Of a stretch of DNA of 64,000 bases, positions 37,811 through 45,722 are shown one piece after another (the first letter of the stretch is position 1; each line of letters opens with the position of its first letter). The DNA is taken from the NCBI GenBank assembly GCA_035710745.1, contig DASTCX010000004.1:62001-126000 (forward strand), in the 5' to 3' direction. The stretch is from Candidatus Eremiobacteraceae bacterium. GTDB lineage: Bacteria; Vulcanimicrobiota; Vulcanimicrobiia; Eremiobacterales; Eremiobacteraceae. A program made the translations under genes and the position numbers. Below the pieces are notes generated by a model, which searched no databases, was not told the origin of the DNA, and was given only the letters and a program-made list of their open reading frames with translations.

Positions 37811-38605
37811 GTGAACGCCGCTTCGTGGTTCCCTCGTTGGCTGCCGTCTGAAAGCGTCGCGCTGTTCGCGGTGCTCGTGCTGCTCGTCATCGCCGTTCCA
37901 GCGATGGGCGCGCTCGTCGCTGCCCGTCTACGATCGGTCGAGGACACGCCGGCGCGCAAACGCGCGCGGTACGCGCGAACGATGCTCGTCCTTTGGACGA
38001 TGACCGGGCTCGCTTACTACGCGCTTCAGCTCCATGGCCTATCGCCGGCAGATATCGGCGCGCGTCCGCCGGTGAACTTCATCTGGTATGCTGTCGGGCC
38101 GCTCATCGTCGCGGTGCTGCTATCGACGAGCGGCGCCGGACGCGGCGACATATCGGACTCGTACGCACGCGCCATCCGCCCCGTCATCCCGAATGACGCA
38201 GTCGACTGGTGCTGGTTCGTCGGGGTCGCCGCGACCGCCGCGATCTGCGAGGAGTTCCTCTATCGCGGCTATGCGCTGACGCAGATCGCCGCGTTGACGC
38301 ACAGCGTCGTCGCCGGTGTCGTCTTGTCGTCGCTCGCTTTCGGGCTCGGGCACGCGTACCAGGGACGGATCGGCATGGTAGGAACGGCGATCACCGGGCT
38401 GCTCTATTCCATGCTTTATTTGGCAAGCGGGTCGCTCGTGCCGTGCATGCTCGCGCATTTCATGCAGGATATTTTCGGTGCGGCTTTACTCTCTCGCCGT
38501 CTTCGCTTGACCGCGTCCGCGGTAGGGCCAAAAGGTGCGCCGGGAGAAGAAGGGCGGGCTTATCAAGAGATCAGCGACAACGAACCCGGGAGAATGCGAC
38601 CTTGA
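37811..38605 (+). CDS. CPBP family intramembrane glutamic protease
   Basis: This is a 264-residue protein with six or more hydrophobic segments. It carries the three CPBP (CAAX protease/bacteriocin-processing) motifs: EEFLYRG (about 144-150), FGLGHAYQG (about 176-184) and the C-terminal HFMQDIFGAAL (about 215-225). These proteases cleave within the membrane; the target is not known. The stop overlaps the ferredoxin start (TTGA at 38602), suggesting co-translation. Confidence 0.88.
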   Translation: MNAASWFPRWLPSESVALFAVLVLLVIAVPAMGALVAARLRSVEDTPARKRARYARTMLVLWTMTGLAYYALQLHGLSPADIGARPPVNFIWYAVGPLIVAVLLSTSGAGRGDISDSYARAIRPVIPNDAVDWCWFVGVAATAAICEEFLYRGYALTQIAALTHSVVAGVVLSSLAFGLGHAYQGRIGMVGTAITGLLYSMLYLASGSLVPCMLAHFMQDIFGAALLSRRLRLTASAVGPKGAPGEEGRAYQEISDNEPGRMRP

Positions 38606-38844
38606 CCTACGTCATCTGCGAGCCGTGCATCACCGTCAAGGACAAGTCGTGCGTCGACGTGTGCCCGGTCGACTGCATCAAGGGCACGGACGAAGATAAG
38701 ATGCTGTACATCGACCCGGCGACGTGCATCGACTGCGGCGCCTGCGTCGCCGCCTGCCCGGTAAACGCGATCTACAACGAGACCGAAGTGCCCGAGCAGT
38801 GGACGGAATACACGAAGATCAACGCTGACTATTTCAACAAATAA
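38602..38844 (+). CDS. fdxA: 7Fe ferredoxin (3Fe-4S/4Fe-4S)
   Basis: This 80-residue protein starts at TTG 38602, overlapping the CPBP stop, with GGGAG nine bases upstream. Cysteine spacing CEPC...KSCVDVCPVDC and CIDCGACVAACP matches 7Fe ferredoxins of the FdxA type, which carry electrons at low potential. It is divergent in function but adjacent, tail to tail, to the formate dehydrogenase genes, whose 3' end is 49 nt away, so a role as redox partner is possible but not shown. Confidence 0.9.
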   Translation: MTYVICEPCITVKDKSCVDVCPVDCIKGTDEDKMLYIDPATCIDCGACVAACPVNAIYNETEVPEQWTEYTKINADYFNK

Positions 38845-38905
38845 GGTGGGTCGAGCGTTTGCTCGACCATCGTAAGATGTAGCGGTCGAGCTTTAGCTCG
38901 ACCGT
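38845..38905. repeat. Pair of short hairpins between ferredoxin and formate dehydrogenase genes
   Basis: GGTCGAGC-GTTT-GCTCGACC at 38849-38868 and GGTCGAGCT-TT-AGCTCGACC at 38884-38903. The second overlaps the 3' end of the FdhA iron-sulfur half. As convergent hairpins they could act as a bidirectional terminator, though no T-run follows. Confidence 0.8.
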
Positions 38906-39747
38906 TCGTCTTTCGGTCTTCCCTTCTTGCCCACGAACTGCCAACCGAAGCGGCCCTTGATGCAAAGGTGACCGCGCGTCACATCGTGATCGAGCGGCGA
39001 CGACACCTTGACGATTTGATTGTCTTGTGCGTGGACGGTAAGCGTGCAACCGACGCCGCAGTACGCGCAAATCGTATCGCCTTGCGTCTGCTTCGATTCG
39101 TCCCACGTGCCCGCTTCGCGCATGTCGTACTCGGTCTTGAACATGAGCGCGCCGGTCGGGCAGACGCCGATGCAGTTGCCGCAGTAGACGCACGCGGAGT
39201 CGGGGAGCGGCACGTCGGACTCCGTCGAGATGTGTGCTTCGAAGCCACGGCCTGCGACCGCGATCGCAAACGTGTTCTGCGCGTCTGTGCCGCACGCTTC
39301 GACGCACTTGTAGCAGAGCACGCACTTCGAGTAGTCGCGGACGTAGAGATCGTTGTCGATCTTCACCGGTTGATGCGTCGTCTGCGCCCGCTCGCCGTAG
39401 CGCGAAGGATCGGCGTCGTAGCGCTTCATCCGCGTCTGCAAGTCGGTCGCGAGCGAAACGTCGACGGACGACGCTAGGAACTCGAGCACCATCTTGCGGC
39501 TCAAGCGGACGCGGTCGCTGTCCGTCTTCACCTTCATCCCGTTCTCGCATTTGCGCGAACACGCAGGCACAAGGGTGCGCGCGCCTTCGAGTTCGACGAC
39601 GCATACCCGGCAGGCGTTGACAGGCGTCAGGTTTTCCAGATAGCAGAGCGTCGGCGTGTCGATCGATGCCTGCCTGCACGCGTCGAGCAGCGTCGCGCCG
39701 TCTGCGACGGTGACCGGCTTACCATCGATCTCGACTTGAACGCTCAT
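38893..39747 (-). CDS. Formate dehydrogenase alpha N-terminal half (iron-sulfur part)
   Basis: The 284-residue protein starts at ATG 39747, overlapping the NuoEF stop as ATGA. It carries a plant-type [2Fe-2S] domain (CRQASIDTPTLCYLENL; CRVCVVELEG), the NuoG-like [4Fe-4S] region, two further [4Fe-4S] motifs (CVLCYKCVEACGTDA; CVYCGNCIGVCPTGA) and finally the Fe4S4 cap of molybdopterin oxidoreductases (ICAYCGVGCTLTVHA ... GHLCIKGRFGW). It stops there, exactly where the molybdopterin domain would begin in a complete NAD-linked FdhA. That missing part is the first gene of the same cluster. It probably transfers electrons from the catalytic half to the NuoEF-like subunit. Confidence 0.85.
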   Translation of the reverse strand: MSVQVEIDGKPVTVADGATLLDACRQASIDTPTLCYLENLTPVNACRVCVVELEGARTLVPACSRKCENGMKVKTDSDRVRLSRKMVLEFLASSVDVSLATDLQTRMKRYDADPSRYGERAQTTHQPVKIDNDLYVRDYSKCVLCYKCVEACGTDAQNTFAIAVAGRGFEAHISTESDVPLPDSACVYCGNCIGVCPTGALMFKTEYDMREAGTWDESKQTQGDTICAYCGVGCTLTVHAQDNQIVKVSSPLDHDVTRGHLCIKGRFGWQFVGKKGRPKDERSS

Positions 39748-41642
39748 CCGGCTTTGGTCCCGAAGAGATCGAACTTCACGATCGCCGACTCGACGGCGCT
39801 CGAGGCCGTTTGGCCGAGTCCGCAGATCGAAGCGTCGCGCATAGCTTGCCCGATTTCGCCGAGCAGCGCACGCTCGGCGTGCGTCTTGCCGTTCGATGCA
39901 CCGCTTGCGAGGCGTTCGAGCAGTTCCTCTTGCCGCACCGTTCCGACGCGGCACGGCACGCACTGCCCGCACGATTCCTCGCGGAAGAAGCGCGCGATGC
40001 GCGCGACGATCTTGCGGAGATCGATGCGGTCGTCGAAAAGCATGACGACCCCAGAGCCGAGTGTCGCCTTGATCGCACGCACGCCTTCGAACGAAAGCGG
40101 CACATCGATCTCATCGGGCGTCAAGAATGTGCCGGCTGCGCCGCCGAGAAGGACCGCCTGCAGCGTGCGTCCGCCGCGCACGCCACCAGCCTTATCGATA
40201 AGCGCACGCAACGTCGTGCCGAACGGAACCTCGTAGACATCGGGTTTCGCAACGCACCCTGAAAGGCAGAACAACTTCGTGCCAGTCGATTCGTTGGTAC
40301 CGATCTTCGCGTACGCTTCGCCGCCCTCTAGGATGATATCCGGTATGTTAATCAGCGTCTCGACGTTGTTGACTATCGTCGGTTTTCCGAATAAACCTTG
40401 CTGGACGGGAAACGGCGGCTTGTTGCGCGGCTCACCACGATAGCCTTCGATAGAATTGAAGAGCGCCGTTTCCTCGCCGCATATGTACGCGCCGGCACCG
40501 CGCCTTATCTCGATGTCGAAGTTAAATCCGCTTCCAAAGATGTTTTCACCGAGCGCGCCTGCTTGACGCGCTCGGTGGATCGCAAACCAAAGCTGCCGCT
40601 TTGCGTTCGGGTACTCCCAACGCACGTAGATGTACCCCTTGGTGCAGCCTCCAGCGTAACCAGCGATCGTCATGGCCTCGATGAGGCTCTCGTGGCGCCA
40701 CTCCATGAGTCGCAGGTCTTTGAAGGTACCTGGCTCCGACTCGTCGGCATTGCAGACCAAGTAATGGGGCCGTTCTGGCTCATTTGCGACTGCTTCCCAC
40801 TTTCGTCCGGTCGGGAAGGCCGCACCGCCGCGCCCCATGAGCTTGGACTTCTTGACTTCCTCGATGATATTGCTCGGCGGGAGCGCTAGAGCCCGACGAA
40901 GAGCAGCGTGATCCTGACGCCTCATGTGCCGCAACATGTGCGCCGGAACTTTACCAAGACGTTCGCGCACTTGCTCGATCATTTCTGGTCTTACCGAGTG
41001 CCCGTCGTGGGTAAGTAGCCGGGCGTCGTCGTCCGTCAGGTAAATACTTCCATGTCCCCCCAGCGACGCCTCATCCAGCGCCCGCCGCACAAGCGAGGGG
41101 GCGGCGAATGGAAGGGGCTCTTCGATCTGTCGTTCACCGCTATGCTTATAGAGCGCTGCCGGCGCGCTATCGCACAATCCGAGGCATGGGCTGCGTAGCC
41201 AGACTTGCGTACCCGCTCGGGCTGGTTCGCCTTCGGGCCCTACCTGCTGCGTAAGTTCGTCGCACAACTGGTCCGCGTACGCGCACATGCAGGCGATGTC
41301 ATCGCACACGAACACGACGTTCTTCGGGCGCGGCTTGAGCGAGAACATGTGGTAGAAACTCGCGACGCCGTACGCTTCCGCCGGCGGAATCGTCAACCGC
41401 TCGCAGATGTAGTTCAGCGCACCTTCGCTGATCCAGCCGATGCGGTCGTTGGCCGCGTGCAGCGCCGGCAAGAGCAGATGCCTGCGCTCGCGCGCCACGT
41501 GGCCGGCGCCCTCAGCGAGGTGATCGTCGCTTGCACGCGATCGATCGCCGCCATCCCATCTGCCGGTGGGCGCGCCCAAGACGGCGTCGATCGCCGCCTT
41601 CTCTTCCGCACTCGCCCGTGCCTCAGTGAGATGGATGTCCAA
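39744..41642 (-). CDS. NAD-linked formate dehydrogenase beta subunit, NuoE-NuoF fusion
   Basis: The 632-residue protein fuses a NuoE-like domain (about 60-190) to a NuoF-like domain (about 230-620). The NuoE part has the [2Fe-2S] ligands in CDDIAC and SPCLGLCDSA. The NuoF part has the NADH/FMN motifs LMGRGGAAFPTGRKWE and NADESEPGTFKDL and the [4Fe-4S] site ESCGQCVPCRVGT. Fused NuoEF subunits are typical of NAD-dependent formate dehydrogenases such as Methylobacterium FDH1. It starts 4 nt before the stop of the catalytic half and ends by ATGA overlap with the iron-sulfur half. Part of its DNA (about 40250-40650) looks less GC-rich than its neighbours. Confidence 0.9.
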   Translation of the reverse strand: MDIHLTEARASAEEKAAIDAVLGAPTGRWDGGDRSRASDDHLAEGAGHVARERRHLLLPALHAANDRIGWISEGALNYICERLTIPPAEAYGVASFYHMFSLKPRPKNVVFVCDDIACMCAYADQLCDELTQQVGPEGEPARAGTQVWLRSPCLGLCDSAPAALYKHSGERQIEEPLPFAAPSLVRRALDEASLGGHGSIYLTDDDARLLTHDGHSVRPEMIEQVRERLGKVPAHMLRHMRRQDHAALRRALALPPSNIIEEVKKSKLMGRGGAAFPTGRKWEAVANEPERPHYLVCNADESEPGTFKDLRLMEWRHESLIEAMTIAGYAGGCTKGYIYVRWEYPNAKRQLWFAIHRARQAGALGENIFGSGFNFDIEIRRGAGAYICGEETALFNSIEGYRGEPRNKPPFPVQQGLFGKPTIVNNVETLINIPDIILEGGEAYAKIGTNESTGTKLFCLSGCVAKPDVYEVPFGTTLRALIDKAGGVRGGRTLQAVLLGGAAGTFLTPDEIDVPLSFEGVRAIKATLGSGVVMLFDDRIDLRKIVARIARFFREESCGQCVPCRVGTVRQEELLERLASGASNGKTHAERALLGEIGQAMRDASICGLGQTASSAVESAIVKFDLFGTKAG

Positions 41643-41645
41643 ACT

Positions 41646-43556
41646 TCAGTCTCCGGCGTGCACTGCGGCGCCGACTTTTTCTATACGGACCGCAGACGCC
41701 TTGAACTCCGCCGTGCCGGATTTCGGATCGGTCGCATCGATGGTCAAGAAATTGACCGGCAAATCGTAGTGGAACGCGAAGAACGCAAGCCCAAACCGCA
41801 GTGACGGGTCGATATGCAAATTCGCACGGACCGAGCCGCGGCGTGACGTCACCGTCACCTCTTCGCCTTCCGCGACGCCGAGCATTGCAGCGTCCTCCGG
41901 CGAGACGTCGATCCAGTCGCCGCGCGTCCGCAGCGGCGATTCGAACTCGCCGCTCTGCACGCCCGAGTTGAACGAGTCGAGGCGCCGTCCGGTCGTCAGC
42001 ATGATCGGGAACTCCGCTGTGATGGCATCGACCGGCGGGTCTTGGATGACGACGTTGAACGGAGCAAGCGTGCCGCGAGCGGGCTTCTCCCACAAACGCG
42101 CGTGGAGGAATTGTTCGCCGGGGTGCTGGTCGTCGTAGCACGGCCAACGGATGCCCTTGAGCGCCTCGAGCCGCGGATACGACATGCCCGCGTGCATCGA
42201 GCTCAGCGAACGCAGCTCATCCCAGAGCGATTGCGCGCTCGGTTTCGGCCACTTCGCTCCCATCCGCGTAGCTATCGACCACACGATGTCGATATCGTCA
42301 CGCGCCTGACCCGGTGGATCGACGATCTTGCGCACGCGCTGCACTCGGCGCTCGCTGTTCGTCACCGTGCCTTCGCTCTCACACCATCCCGCGGCGGCCG
42401 GCAGCACGACGTGCGCGAGCTTGGCCGTATGCGTCAGCGTGACGTCTTGGACGACGAGGCAGTCGAGCCGCTTCAGCAAGTCTTCGGTTCGGTGTCGATC
42501 CGCCTCCGACACGAGCGGGTTCTCGCCGACGATGTAGAGCGCGTGCATCTCGCCGTGCTCGACGGCATCGAACATCTCGTTGAGCCGCTTGCCTCGTGTC
42601 GGCGGGATCTTGACGCCCCACGCCGCTTCGAACTTGCCGCGCGCCGCATCGTCGCCGACGGCTTGAAAACCCGGCAGTCGATCCGGGATCGCGCCCATGT
42701 CGCCGCCGCCCTGCACGTTGTTCTGACCGCGCAAGGGATTCAAGCCGGAACCGTAACGGCCGACGTGACCGGTGAGCAAGCCGAGATTGATGAGCGCGAA
42801 GACGTTGTCGACCGCGTTGTGATGTTCGGTGATGCCAAGCGTCCAGCAGATCATCGCCCGCTTCGCGGTCGCGTACTCGACGGCGACTCGTCGGATAGCA
42901 TCGGCCGGAACACCGGTGATCTTTTCCGCCTCATCGGGCGTCGTGGCGGCGACGCTCCCACGGTATGCGTCGAAGCCCGAGGTCGCATTGGCGATGAACT
43001 CGCGATGCTCGAGACCGCGAGCGAGGATCTCGTTCGCCATCGCGTTGGAGAGCGCGATGTCCGTGCCGACGTTGAGGCCGAGCCACGTGTCTGCCCACTG
43101 CGCGCTGAACGTCCGGCGAGGATCGACGACGACGAGCTTCGCACCGCGCCGCACCGCCTTCAGGACGTGATGGAAGAAGATGGGGTGCGTCTCGCGCGCG
43201 TTGCTGCCCCACAAGAAGATGAAGTCGGCTTCCTCGACTTCCTCGTACGAGCTGGTGCCGCCGCCGGCACCGAACACCGCCGCCAGACCGACGACGCTAG
43301 GAGCGTGTCACGTCCGGTTGCAGCTGTCGACGTTATTGCAGCCGACGACAGCGCGGGCGAATTTCTCGGTGAGGAAGTTGAGCTCGTTCGTCGCCTTCGA
43401 GCAGCTGAATAGACCGAACGAATCCGGTCCGTGCGCCGCCACGACCTCGCGGAAGCCTCGAGCGGCGCGATCGAGCGCCTCGTCCCAGCTCGCGGGTCGC
43501 AGCCTGCCGTCCTCACGGACGAGCGGCTCGAGCAGCCTTTCGAACGTTTCCCTCAT
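41646..43556 (-). CDS. Selenocysteine-containing formate dehydrogenase, molybdopterin catalytic half
   Basis: Two adjacent frames form one gene through an in-frame TGA at 43310-43308 (codon 83 of about 636, counted from ATG 43556). Upstream reads CNNVDSCNRT and downstream HAPSVVGLAAVFGAGGGTSS, the exact FdhA sequence around the residue that ligates Mo or W, where other enzymes have Cys or Sec. A hairpin follows immediately. Downstream are family motifs: VVDPRRTFSAQWADTWLGL, AMICWTLGITEHHNAVDN and GHVGRYGSGLNPLRGQNNVQ. The gene lacks the N-terminal iron-sulfur domains of normal FdhA, which are encoded at 38893-39747. ATG 43556 has TGAGG nine bases upstream. The enzyme oxidises formate (or reduces CO2) with NAD through the NuoEF subunit. 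selA/B/C/D are not in the window. Confidence 0.85.
43278..43310 (-). promoter_or_regulatory. UGA selenocysteine codon with SECIS-like hairpin
   Basis: On the minus strand, 11 nt after the TGA, CGTCGTC (43296-43290) pairs fully with GGCGGCG (43284-43278), counting G-U pairs, closing a five-base loop GGTCT (43289-43285). Bacterial SECIS elements lie directly after the UGA and need GGU/GGUC in the apical loop for SelB binding; position and loop both fit. Confidence 0.75.
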
Positions 43557-43763
43557 GGATACGAACCTCAGATGGCCGTTTCGGACGTCAGGAATCGCCT
43601 CATATGCGCCCGAAATCGCCGACCTGTTCCGCGATGCGGCGGCCATGTCCGCCTCATGCGAGGTCTCCCGTTTGCCGATGTCTTCCATAGAAGCACCACG
43701 AATAAGGGCCATCTTATCCGCGCGCTTTGGCCGCGCGTACGATGCCCCGCCGCCCGCTAGACG

Positions 43764-45722
43764 GTGCGGCTTTTTCATCGACGGGTGAACGACCGAGTGA
43801 AAGAATCGCTAGCAGATCGGGTGCGCGCGCGGCTGCGCCGTCTGCTCGGCTACGTCACCGGTGAAAGCAGCGGTCTTACGCAGCGTCCGGAGGACGTGCT
43901 GCCGCATGTCTTGCGGCCGCCGCGGTTCCCAGGAGCCGATGCCGCTGCCGATGGCGAGCTCTCCGACGACGATTTCGATTCGCTCCTGCGCGAAGGCCGC
44001 ATCCGCACCGAGTATCAACCGATCGTCTCGCTCGGTGACGGGAGCGTCATCGGATACGAAGCACTGTCGCGCGGCCCGATCGGTACGCGCCTCGAGACCG
44101 CGAACGCGCTCTTCGAAGCCGCGCGTCGTCGCGGCGTCGGCCCGGTGCTCGAGCGACTCTGCCGGTTCCGCGCGCTGAGCGGCGCCTCGAGTTTGCCGCC
44201 GGGCTGCTCGCTGTTCTTGAACATCAGTCCGAACGTCCTCGAAGAGCGCCACGGCGGTCTCACGCATGACGTCCTCGAGCAGCATCACCTCCCGAGCGAG
44301 CGCATCGTCCTCGAGATCACCGAAAAGGAAGCGATCGCGGACTTCGATTTCTTCAAGCGGACGCTGCTCCACTATAGCCGGCAAGGCTTCAAGATCGCGA
44401 TCGACGACGCCGGCGCCGGACACAACAGCTTGCACGCGGTCACCGAGATCCGGCCGCACTACATCAAGCTCGATATGGCGCTCGTCCGCGACATCGACCG
44501 CGACCGCGCGAAGAACGCGCTCGTCGCCGCGATCATCATGTTCGCCCGGCGGATCGATGCGCGCGTCCTCGCGGAAGGAGTCGAGACGGTCGAAGAGCTC
44601 GCGACGCTCATCGAGATCGGCGTCGACTACGGTCAAGGCCACGTGCTCGCGAGGCCGGCGCCCGCTTTCGTCGAGCCGAAGGCGGAAGTCGCGGCGTTCA
44701 TCCGCGAGAGAGCGTCGGCGAGCCGCGTCGTCGCCGCGCCGACGCGCATGGCGGTCAACACGATCACGCGTCGCGCGCCCGCGCTCATGCCGACGGCGTA
44801 CACCGGTGAGGTGCTCGAGATATTCGAGCGCAACCCCGACCTCGACAGCGTCGTGCTCACCGAGTACGGCGCGCCCGTCGGACTCGTCAGCCGTACGAAA
44901 CTGTACGAACGGCTGTCGCGGCAATTCGGCTACTCGATATACGCGAAGCGGCCGGTGCGGCTCGTCATGGACGACGCGTATCTCTCGGTCGACTCGAAGG
45001 ATTCGATCGACGAGGTCGCCCGCAAGGTCGTCCATCGCCGCCGGACGGAGATCTACGACGAAGTCATCGTCTTGGAGAACGGCGTCTATTCGGGCGTCGT
45101 CTCCGTACGCGATCTGCTCCACACGATGACCGAGTTCCAAGCATCGGTCAACCGCTACTCGAACCCGCTGACGGGCCTGCCGGGCAGAACCCTCGTCCAG
45201 CAAGAGATCGAGCGCCGCGCGAACTCCGGGGCGCCGTACGCGCTGCTCCACGTCGACATCAACCATTTCCGGGCGTACAACGAGCGCCACGGCTACGGGC
45301 GCGGCGACGAGGTCATCAAGGCGCTCGCCGAATGCCTCGTCACCGTGACGAAAGAGATCGAAGGTCCGCAAGGCCTCGTCGGCCACCTCGGAGGCGTCAA
45401 TTTCGTCGTCGTCGGGAGCGAGCGAACGGTCGAGGCGATGGGCATCGCGATCATCGAGCGATTCGAGCGGCGCGCCGCCGCCCTCTACATCCAGCGCGAA
45501 GTGTCGCTGCTCGGGGCCGACGTCCGCTCGGCGCCGCCGGAGATCGAGCTCGCCGCCGCGGGCGTCACCGCGACCGCTGCTCAGGGCAGCGGCGGGGGCG
45601 GGCTAGCGGCACGAGCCGCGCAATACAAACGGATGGCGCGCACGATGCGCGGCAGCGCGTTCGTATTAGACGGCCGCGTCGTCGTCGGCAGCAGAGAAGG
45701 CGGCGCTTTCAGACGCGCGTAG
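43764..45722 (+). CDS. EAL-CBS-degenerate GGDEF c-di-GMP signalling protein
   Basis: This 652-residue soluble protein has an EAL domain (about 75-315) with a full set of phosphodiesterase residues: GYEALSRG (EAL), LFLNISP, LEITEKE, AIDDAGAG, IKLDMALV and LAEGVET. A CBS-pair region (about 335-465) follows, then a GGDEF-like domain (about 470-610) in which GGDEF is replaced by GGVNF, so cyclase activity is unlikely. This order is known from EAL-CBS-GGDEF proteins where the last domain regulates. A PilZ receptor gene lies 2.4 kb away. Start GTG 43764; later GTG codons (43785, 43797) are possible. It is divergent from formate dehydrogenase. Confidence 0.88.
   Translation: MRLFHRRVNDRVKESLADRVRARLRRLLGYVTGESSGLTQRPEDVLPHVLRPPRFPGADAAADGELSDDDFDSLLREGRIRTEYQPIVSLGDGSVIGYEALSRGPIGTRLETANALFEAARRRGVGPVLERLCRFRALSGASSLPPGCSLFLNISPNVLEERHGGLTHDVLEQHHLPSERIVLEITEKEAIADFDFFKRTLLHYSRQGFKIAIDDAGAGHNSLHAVTEIRPHYIKLDMALVRDIDRDRAKNALVAAIIMFARRIDARVLAEGVETVEELATLIEIGVDYGQGHVLARPAPAFVEPKAEVAAFIRERASASRVVAAPTRMAVNTITRRAPALMPTAYTGEVLEIFERNPDLDSVVLTEYGAPVGLVSRTKLYERLSRQFGYSIYAKRPVRLVMDDAYLSVDSKDSIDEVARKVVHRRRTEIYDEVIVLENGVYSGVVSVRDLLHTMTEFQASVNRYSNPLTGLPGRTLVQQEIERRANSGAPYALLHVDINHFRAYNERHGYGRGDEVIKALAECLVTVTKEIEGPQGLVGHLGGVNFVVVGSERTVEAMGIAIIERFERRAAALYIQREVSLLGADVRSAPPEIELAAAGVTATAAQGSGGGGLAARAAQYKRMARTMRGSAFVLDGRVVVGSREGGAFRRA

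Follow-up and report, generated by a model that had tools for sequence, protein, structure and literature searches.

The window analysed here is a 64,000-nucleotide stretch of Eremiobacterota DNA, in which three minus-strand genes very probably encode a single cytoplasmic, NAD(P)-linked, Mo- or W-dependent formate dehydrogenase (FDH), with the UGA at codon 83 of the catalytic gene specifying selenocysteine (Sec). Judged from the sequence, this in-frame TGA is almost certainly decoded as Sec in the formate dehydrogenase active site. Placement of Sec at the Mo/W-ligand position is argued from the sel genes of the host genome, from alignment with Sec140, His141, and Arg333 of Escherichia coli FdhF, from the finding of TGA in every orthologue that spans the site, and from a conserved bSECIS hairpin. 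From sequence features, conservation, and sel genes, we also infer actual Sec insertion, assembly of the complex, the cofactor metal, the direction of the reaction, and the use of NAD.

Translation of positions 43556–41646 (minus strand) gave 636 codons with a single internal stop, the TGA at 43310–43308 (codon 83), which lies in the context SCNRT-U-HAPSVVGLA and aligns with Sec140 of FdhF. With table 11, the open reading frame list instead holds two separate frames, 43308–43778 and 41646–43277. Both halves matched the Pfam Molybdopterin domain, with 250 bits for the joined protein and 192 and 44 bits for the halves; no frameshift was found in 41646–43556, and the frame is otherwise open. The join across the TGA is thus not a matter of chance, since both halves match one Pfam domain, no frameshift intervenes, and each examined orthologue that spans the site retains TGA. 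An earlier note on this DNA had joined the two frames through this TGA, assigned its flanks to the metal-ligating Sec site of FdhA, taken the codon to be the only interruption, and anticipated that standard annotation would miss or misjudge the gene, all of which is borne out by the translation, the shared domain, the FdhF alignment, and the two table 11 frames. The note's length of about 636 codons was also correct, but not its equation of this length with the whole FdhA: the 636 codons make up the catalytic two-thirds only (Molybdopterin and Molydop_binding domains), the Fe–S third being a separate gene at 38893–39747.

For assignment of the catalytic piece to a family, profile, sequence, and structure comparisons were used. 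A selenoprotein of the same fold acting on a substrate other than formate, such as a nitrate reductase-like enzyme or another C1 oxidoreductase, could be proposed for a clade that stands at 36–46% identity from the other FDHs of its phylum and in which FdhD is missing in several genomes. Such an enzyme is improbable, as the catalytic piece scored far above NasC (394 bits) with TIGR01591 (Fdh-alpha), its best family (657 bits, model 52–672). The N-terminal piece matched the same model at 1–53 with 53 bits, and the cut-off of 666 is exceeded only with both pieces counted. The His and Arg diagnostic of FDH, whose role in the active site is given in PMC10385643, are represented by His84 and Arg276, equivalent to FdhF His141 and Arg333, and were invariant in 87/87 aligned sequences. 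FDHs were also the best matches in a sequence search and the top fold matches of a structure model (pLDDT 72, medium confidence), with FdhF, R. aestuarii FDH, M. extorquens FDH1, and R. capsulatus FdsA (RcFdsA) among the best in the PDB.

Conservation of the codon was then examined across genomes. TGA was found in 80/80 relatives (the best 80 of 438 in the genome collection, at 64–94% identity), and Cys or another sense codon in none; these relatives belong to the Acidobacteria, Chloroflexi, Planctomycetes, Rokubacteria, Gemmatimonadetes, Actinobacteria, and other groups, the nearest named one being a Candidatus Eremiobacteria MAG that is 94% identical in the catalytic gene. A rare Cys form may occur beyond these best 80. 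Among Eremiobacterota, TGA was likewise carried by each of the 34 orthologues with 60% identity or more that cover the codon, a count that leaves out G010 and G105, whose sequences do not span it; for Acidobacteriota (a sample of 297 genomes), the same was true of 22/22 orthologues covering the codon. More distant FDHs (36–46% identity), mostly in much longer open frames, included both TGA and sense forms. Among cultured Acidobacteriota, Occallatibacter riparius is credited with three selenoprotein genes (PMC12013277). Two cases of extra TAG or TAA stops in relatives (G002/L104 and L062) were examined and were terminal stops. Separately, a further FDH-like gene, open over ∼1000 codons and likewise interrupted by an in-frame TGA, was observed (L111–L113, L115–L117, L124, and L127) in the family genomes G001, G002, G003, G007, G008, and G009.

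The host genome, an Eremiobacterota MAG of 2.97 Mb that is 98% complete, was searched family by family for the machinery of Sec insertion. It contains tRNA-Sec (selC; 74.5 bits, anticodon TCA), selD (362 bits), and, side by side on contig C15, selA (516 bits) followed at once by selB (310.5 bits). The genome also has moaA. The selD gene (G000:C4:25558–26484, L018) has its own in-frame TGA near the start, within a UASK motif corresponding to UxxK (PMC13188914), and its product is therefore probably a selenoprotein too. Elsewhere, selA was found in 13/14 genomes of the family and in 31/33 genomes of other groups with this split FDH, the two without it being assemblies of 2.3 and 3.2 Mb whose completeness is not established. 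In one family member (G010), the split FDH is present (L110, G010:C327) and selA was not found; this contig breaks off only a few codons beyond the Sec site. The earlier note had listed, as grounds for abandoning the Sec reading, a genome without selenocysteine genes, a codon other than Cys or Sec in a related strain, and further frameshifts in the gene; the reading survived all three, with all four of selA, selB, selC, and selD present.

A bSECIS hairpin was located at 43278–43296 (minus strand), with the sequence CGUCGYC-GGUCU-GGCGACG. Counted from the U of UGA, its 6–7-bp stem is formed by nt 15/16–21 with 27–32/33, and its GGUCU apical loop occupies nt 22–26 (43289–43285, minus strand). 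The bSECIS model describes an apical loop of 3–9 nt, with G in the first two positions, 16–37 nt from the UGA (PMC13188914); here, the loop is GGUCU, 18 nt lie between UGA and loop, and the pairing is conserved. The six inner pairs were standard in 450/450 cells (75 distinct sequences), with compensatory C-G to G-C changes at pairs 18–30 and 21–27 and one-sided exchange at others, whereas slid partners, used as a control, paired in 16–87%. For synonymous conservation, codons +4 to +9 ranked 16, 3, 2, 6, 1, and 4 of 592 scored and formed the best of 600 six-codon windows, with a ratio of 0.16 compared with 0.56 for the best window elsewhere; the strongest synonymous constraint in the gene falls on these codons because the hairpin lies there. 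The folding energy of the single copy in the window was modestly lower than that of shuffles (z = −1.56), and the case for the SECIS rests for this reason on the cross-species comparison. No signal emerged when the 55 nt that follow the TGA were folded (z = 0.13); the signal came from the 27-nt hairpin and from pairing across species.

These results also bear on two other explanations of the TGA. Readthrough of UGA by other tRNAs occurs in some bacteria, and the codon could accordingly be read as another residue (Trp or Cys), by readthrough or through a changed code. This is very unlikely, given that TGA also ends genes in the host, including the catalytic gene itself at 41646–41648, that a SECIS at canonical distance is accompanied by a tRNA-Sec with anticodon TCA, and that a sense codon was seen at the site in none of the close orthologues. 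Less likely still, to the point of being negligible, is that the TGA is a real stop, a mutation, or a sequencing error, and that fdhA is a broken pseudogene, as the two frames of the table 11 translation might suggest; the codon is TGA in every examined orthologue covering it, across phyla, in a frame that is otherwise open, with sel genes in the genome and a conserved hairpin under synonymous constraint. Decoding as Sec is thus the reading adopted below.

Alongside the catalytic piece (41646–43556, minus strand) are two further genes on the same strand. The first is a NuoE–NuoF fusion (39744–41642), a diaphorase subunit with 2Fe-2S thioredoxin-like, FMN/NAD, SLBB, and 4Fe-4S parts; the second, whose ATG overlaps the NuoEF stop (ATGA), is the FdhA N-terminal piece (38893–39747), with 2Fe-2S, two 4Fe-4S, and the MopB Fe4S4 domain. 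Together, the two FdhA pieces tile RcFdsA, the N-terminal piece corresponding to residues 25–304 and the catalytic piece to 307–932, so that almost nothing is missing, yet the chain is spread over two genes. Gene order is reversed relative to the FdsA chain (catalytic, NuoEF, N-terminal), and this order, with the genes on one strand, was seen in 64/64 loci where all three genes were found. A search for other conserved neighbors left these three genes as the only general core, and no plasmid-borne relative was found. The NuoE–NuoF fusion beside the FdhA pieces points to an NAD-linked complex.

Ligands of cluster A4 are absent from the N-terminal piece in the window and in 12 relatives (13 sequences aligned). 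In RcFDH, the direct electron path runs through A1, A2, A3, A5, and B6, and A4 (His117, Cys121, Cys124, and Cys130) lies off this path, at the dimer interface (PMC7171172). As the A4 ligands alone are missing, the direct path is predicted to be kept and the inter-protomer link to be lost. An AlphaFold model of the N-terminal piece was too poor (pLDDT 54.8) and was set aside, and stops in alignments of this piece fall in a false upstream extension or past the true end.

Several other features of these loci were observed. The NuoEF of L092 has an isolated in-frame TGA at query position 277, within an insertion, which may stem from the assembly or the alignment. In the Chloroflexi loci L054, L067, L076, L079, and L099, the catalytic gene is separated from NuoEF by an additional 0.8–2.7 kb, and a selD-like ORF is nearby in eight loci. 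In the window, the ferredoxin domains of the ORF at 38209–38844 (plus strand) are confined to its C-terminal part, and its listed start is therefore probably too far upstream.

In the mechanism that we propose, the hairpin a short way downstream of UGA codon 83 would guide SelB and tRNA-Sec in decoding this codon, and the two FdhA pieces would assemble non-covalently. The enzyme would catalyze formate + NAD+ ↔ CO2 + NADH, with the metal ligated by Sec and with His84 and Arg276 serving as conserved second-sphere residues. Electrons would pass from the metal to Fe4S4, the 4Fe-4S clusters, and then 2Fe-2S, all in the N-terminal piece, and from this 2Fe-2S to the FMN of the NuoE–NuoF subunit.

In E. 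coli, FDH activity depends on the sulfurtransferase FdhD, and fdhD is already known to be absent from some FDH-bearing organisms (PMC10609526). No match to FdhD was found in the host genome (98% complete) using TIGR00129 or PF02634, a result that weighs against the FDH reading, because the FDHs studied so far need FdhD to be active. With PF02634, FdhD was likewise not found in 12/13 other family genomes, the sole one with FdhD being a genome without this split FDH, nor in nine Acidobacteria genomes with this split FDH, including G023, a single 5.1-Mb chromosome. FdhD was present in the tested Chloroflexi, Planctomycetes, and other genomes. We tentatively suggest, as a possibility that is somewhat against the odds, a Sec-only FDH clade, widespread among bacteria not yet cultured, in which two separately translated pieces would make up the catalytic chain and which, in Eremiobacterota and some of the Acidobacteriota, would be matured without FdhD, its cofactor being sulfurated by another route or needing no sulfuration. 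With FdhD apparently lacking here, the idea that FDHs generally need this sulfurtransferase can be put to the test.

Selenocysteine FDH itself is already known. What is new, within the open literature searched, is a Sec-only clade in which the α subunit is split and permuted, the diaphorase is fused, and cluster A4 is missing; searches of that literature found no paper on a split Sec-FDH of such layout or on Sec in Eremiobacterota. This conserved selenoenzyme clade extends over Eremiobacterota, Acidobacteriota, Chloroflexota, Planctomycetota, and others, where ordinary annotation would call the gene broken. Because ordinary gene calling would misread the gene in these uncultured soil and groundwater groups, formate oxidation there is likely underestimated. 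The split also marks a point at which an FdhA chain can be divided and still be maintained by selection, a useful guide for protein engineering.

Among known systems, the closest solved sequences to the catalytic piece are HDCR FdhF and methanogen FDH catalytic subunits (7qv7 and 7bkb), which differ in being single-chain catalytic subunits that include the Fe4S4 domain and in having other electron partners. R. capsulatus FdsABGD (6tg9/6tga) shares the 2Fe-2S, 4Fe-4S, and Fe4S4 clusters, the bis-MGD catalytic domain, and a NuoE- and NuoF-like diaphorase. RcFdsA, however, is one chain with Cys386 and with the A4 ligands, whereas the present protein is split near residue 305, with the pieces permuted and Sec in place of Cys; the NuoE-like and NuoF-like parts are fused here, and the FdhD/FdsC of the R. 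capsulatus system was not found in the present genome. E. coli FdhF (formate dehydrogenase H) differs in that its Fe4S4 domain and catalytic part share one chain and in that it belongs to formate hydrogenlyase, with no diaphorase. It resembles the catalytic piece in its 38% identity over 632 aligned positions, in Sec at the metal ligand with His and Arg partners, and in the GGUCU SECIS loop, which is found at nt 22–26 in fdhF of the E. coli K-12 genome sequence as it is here.
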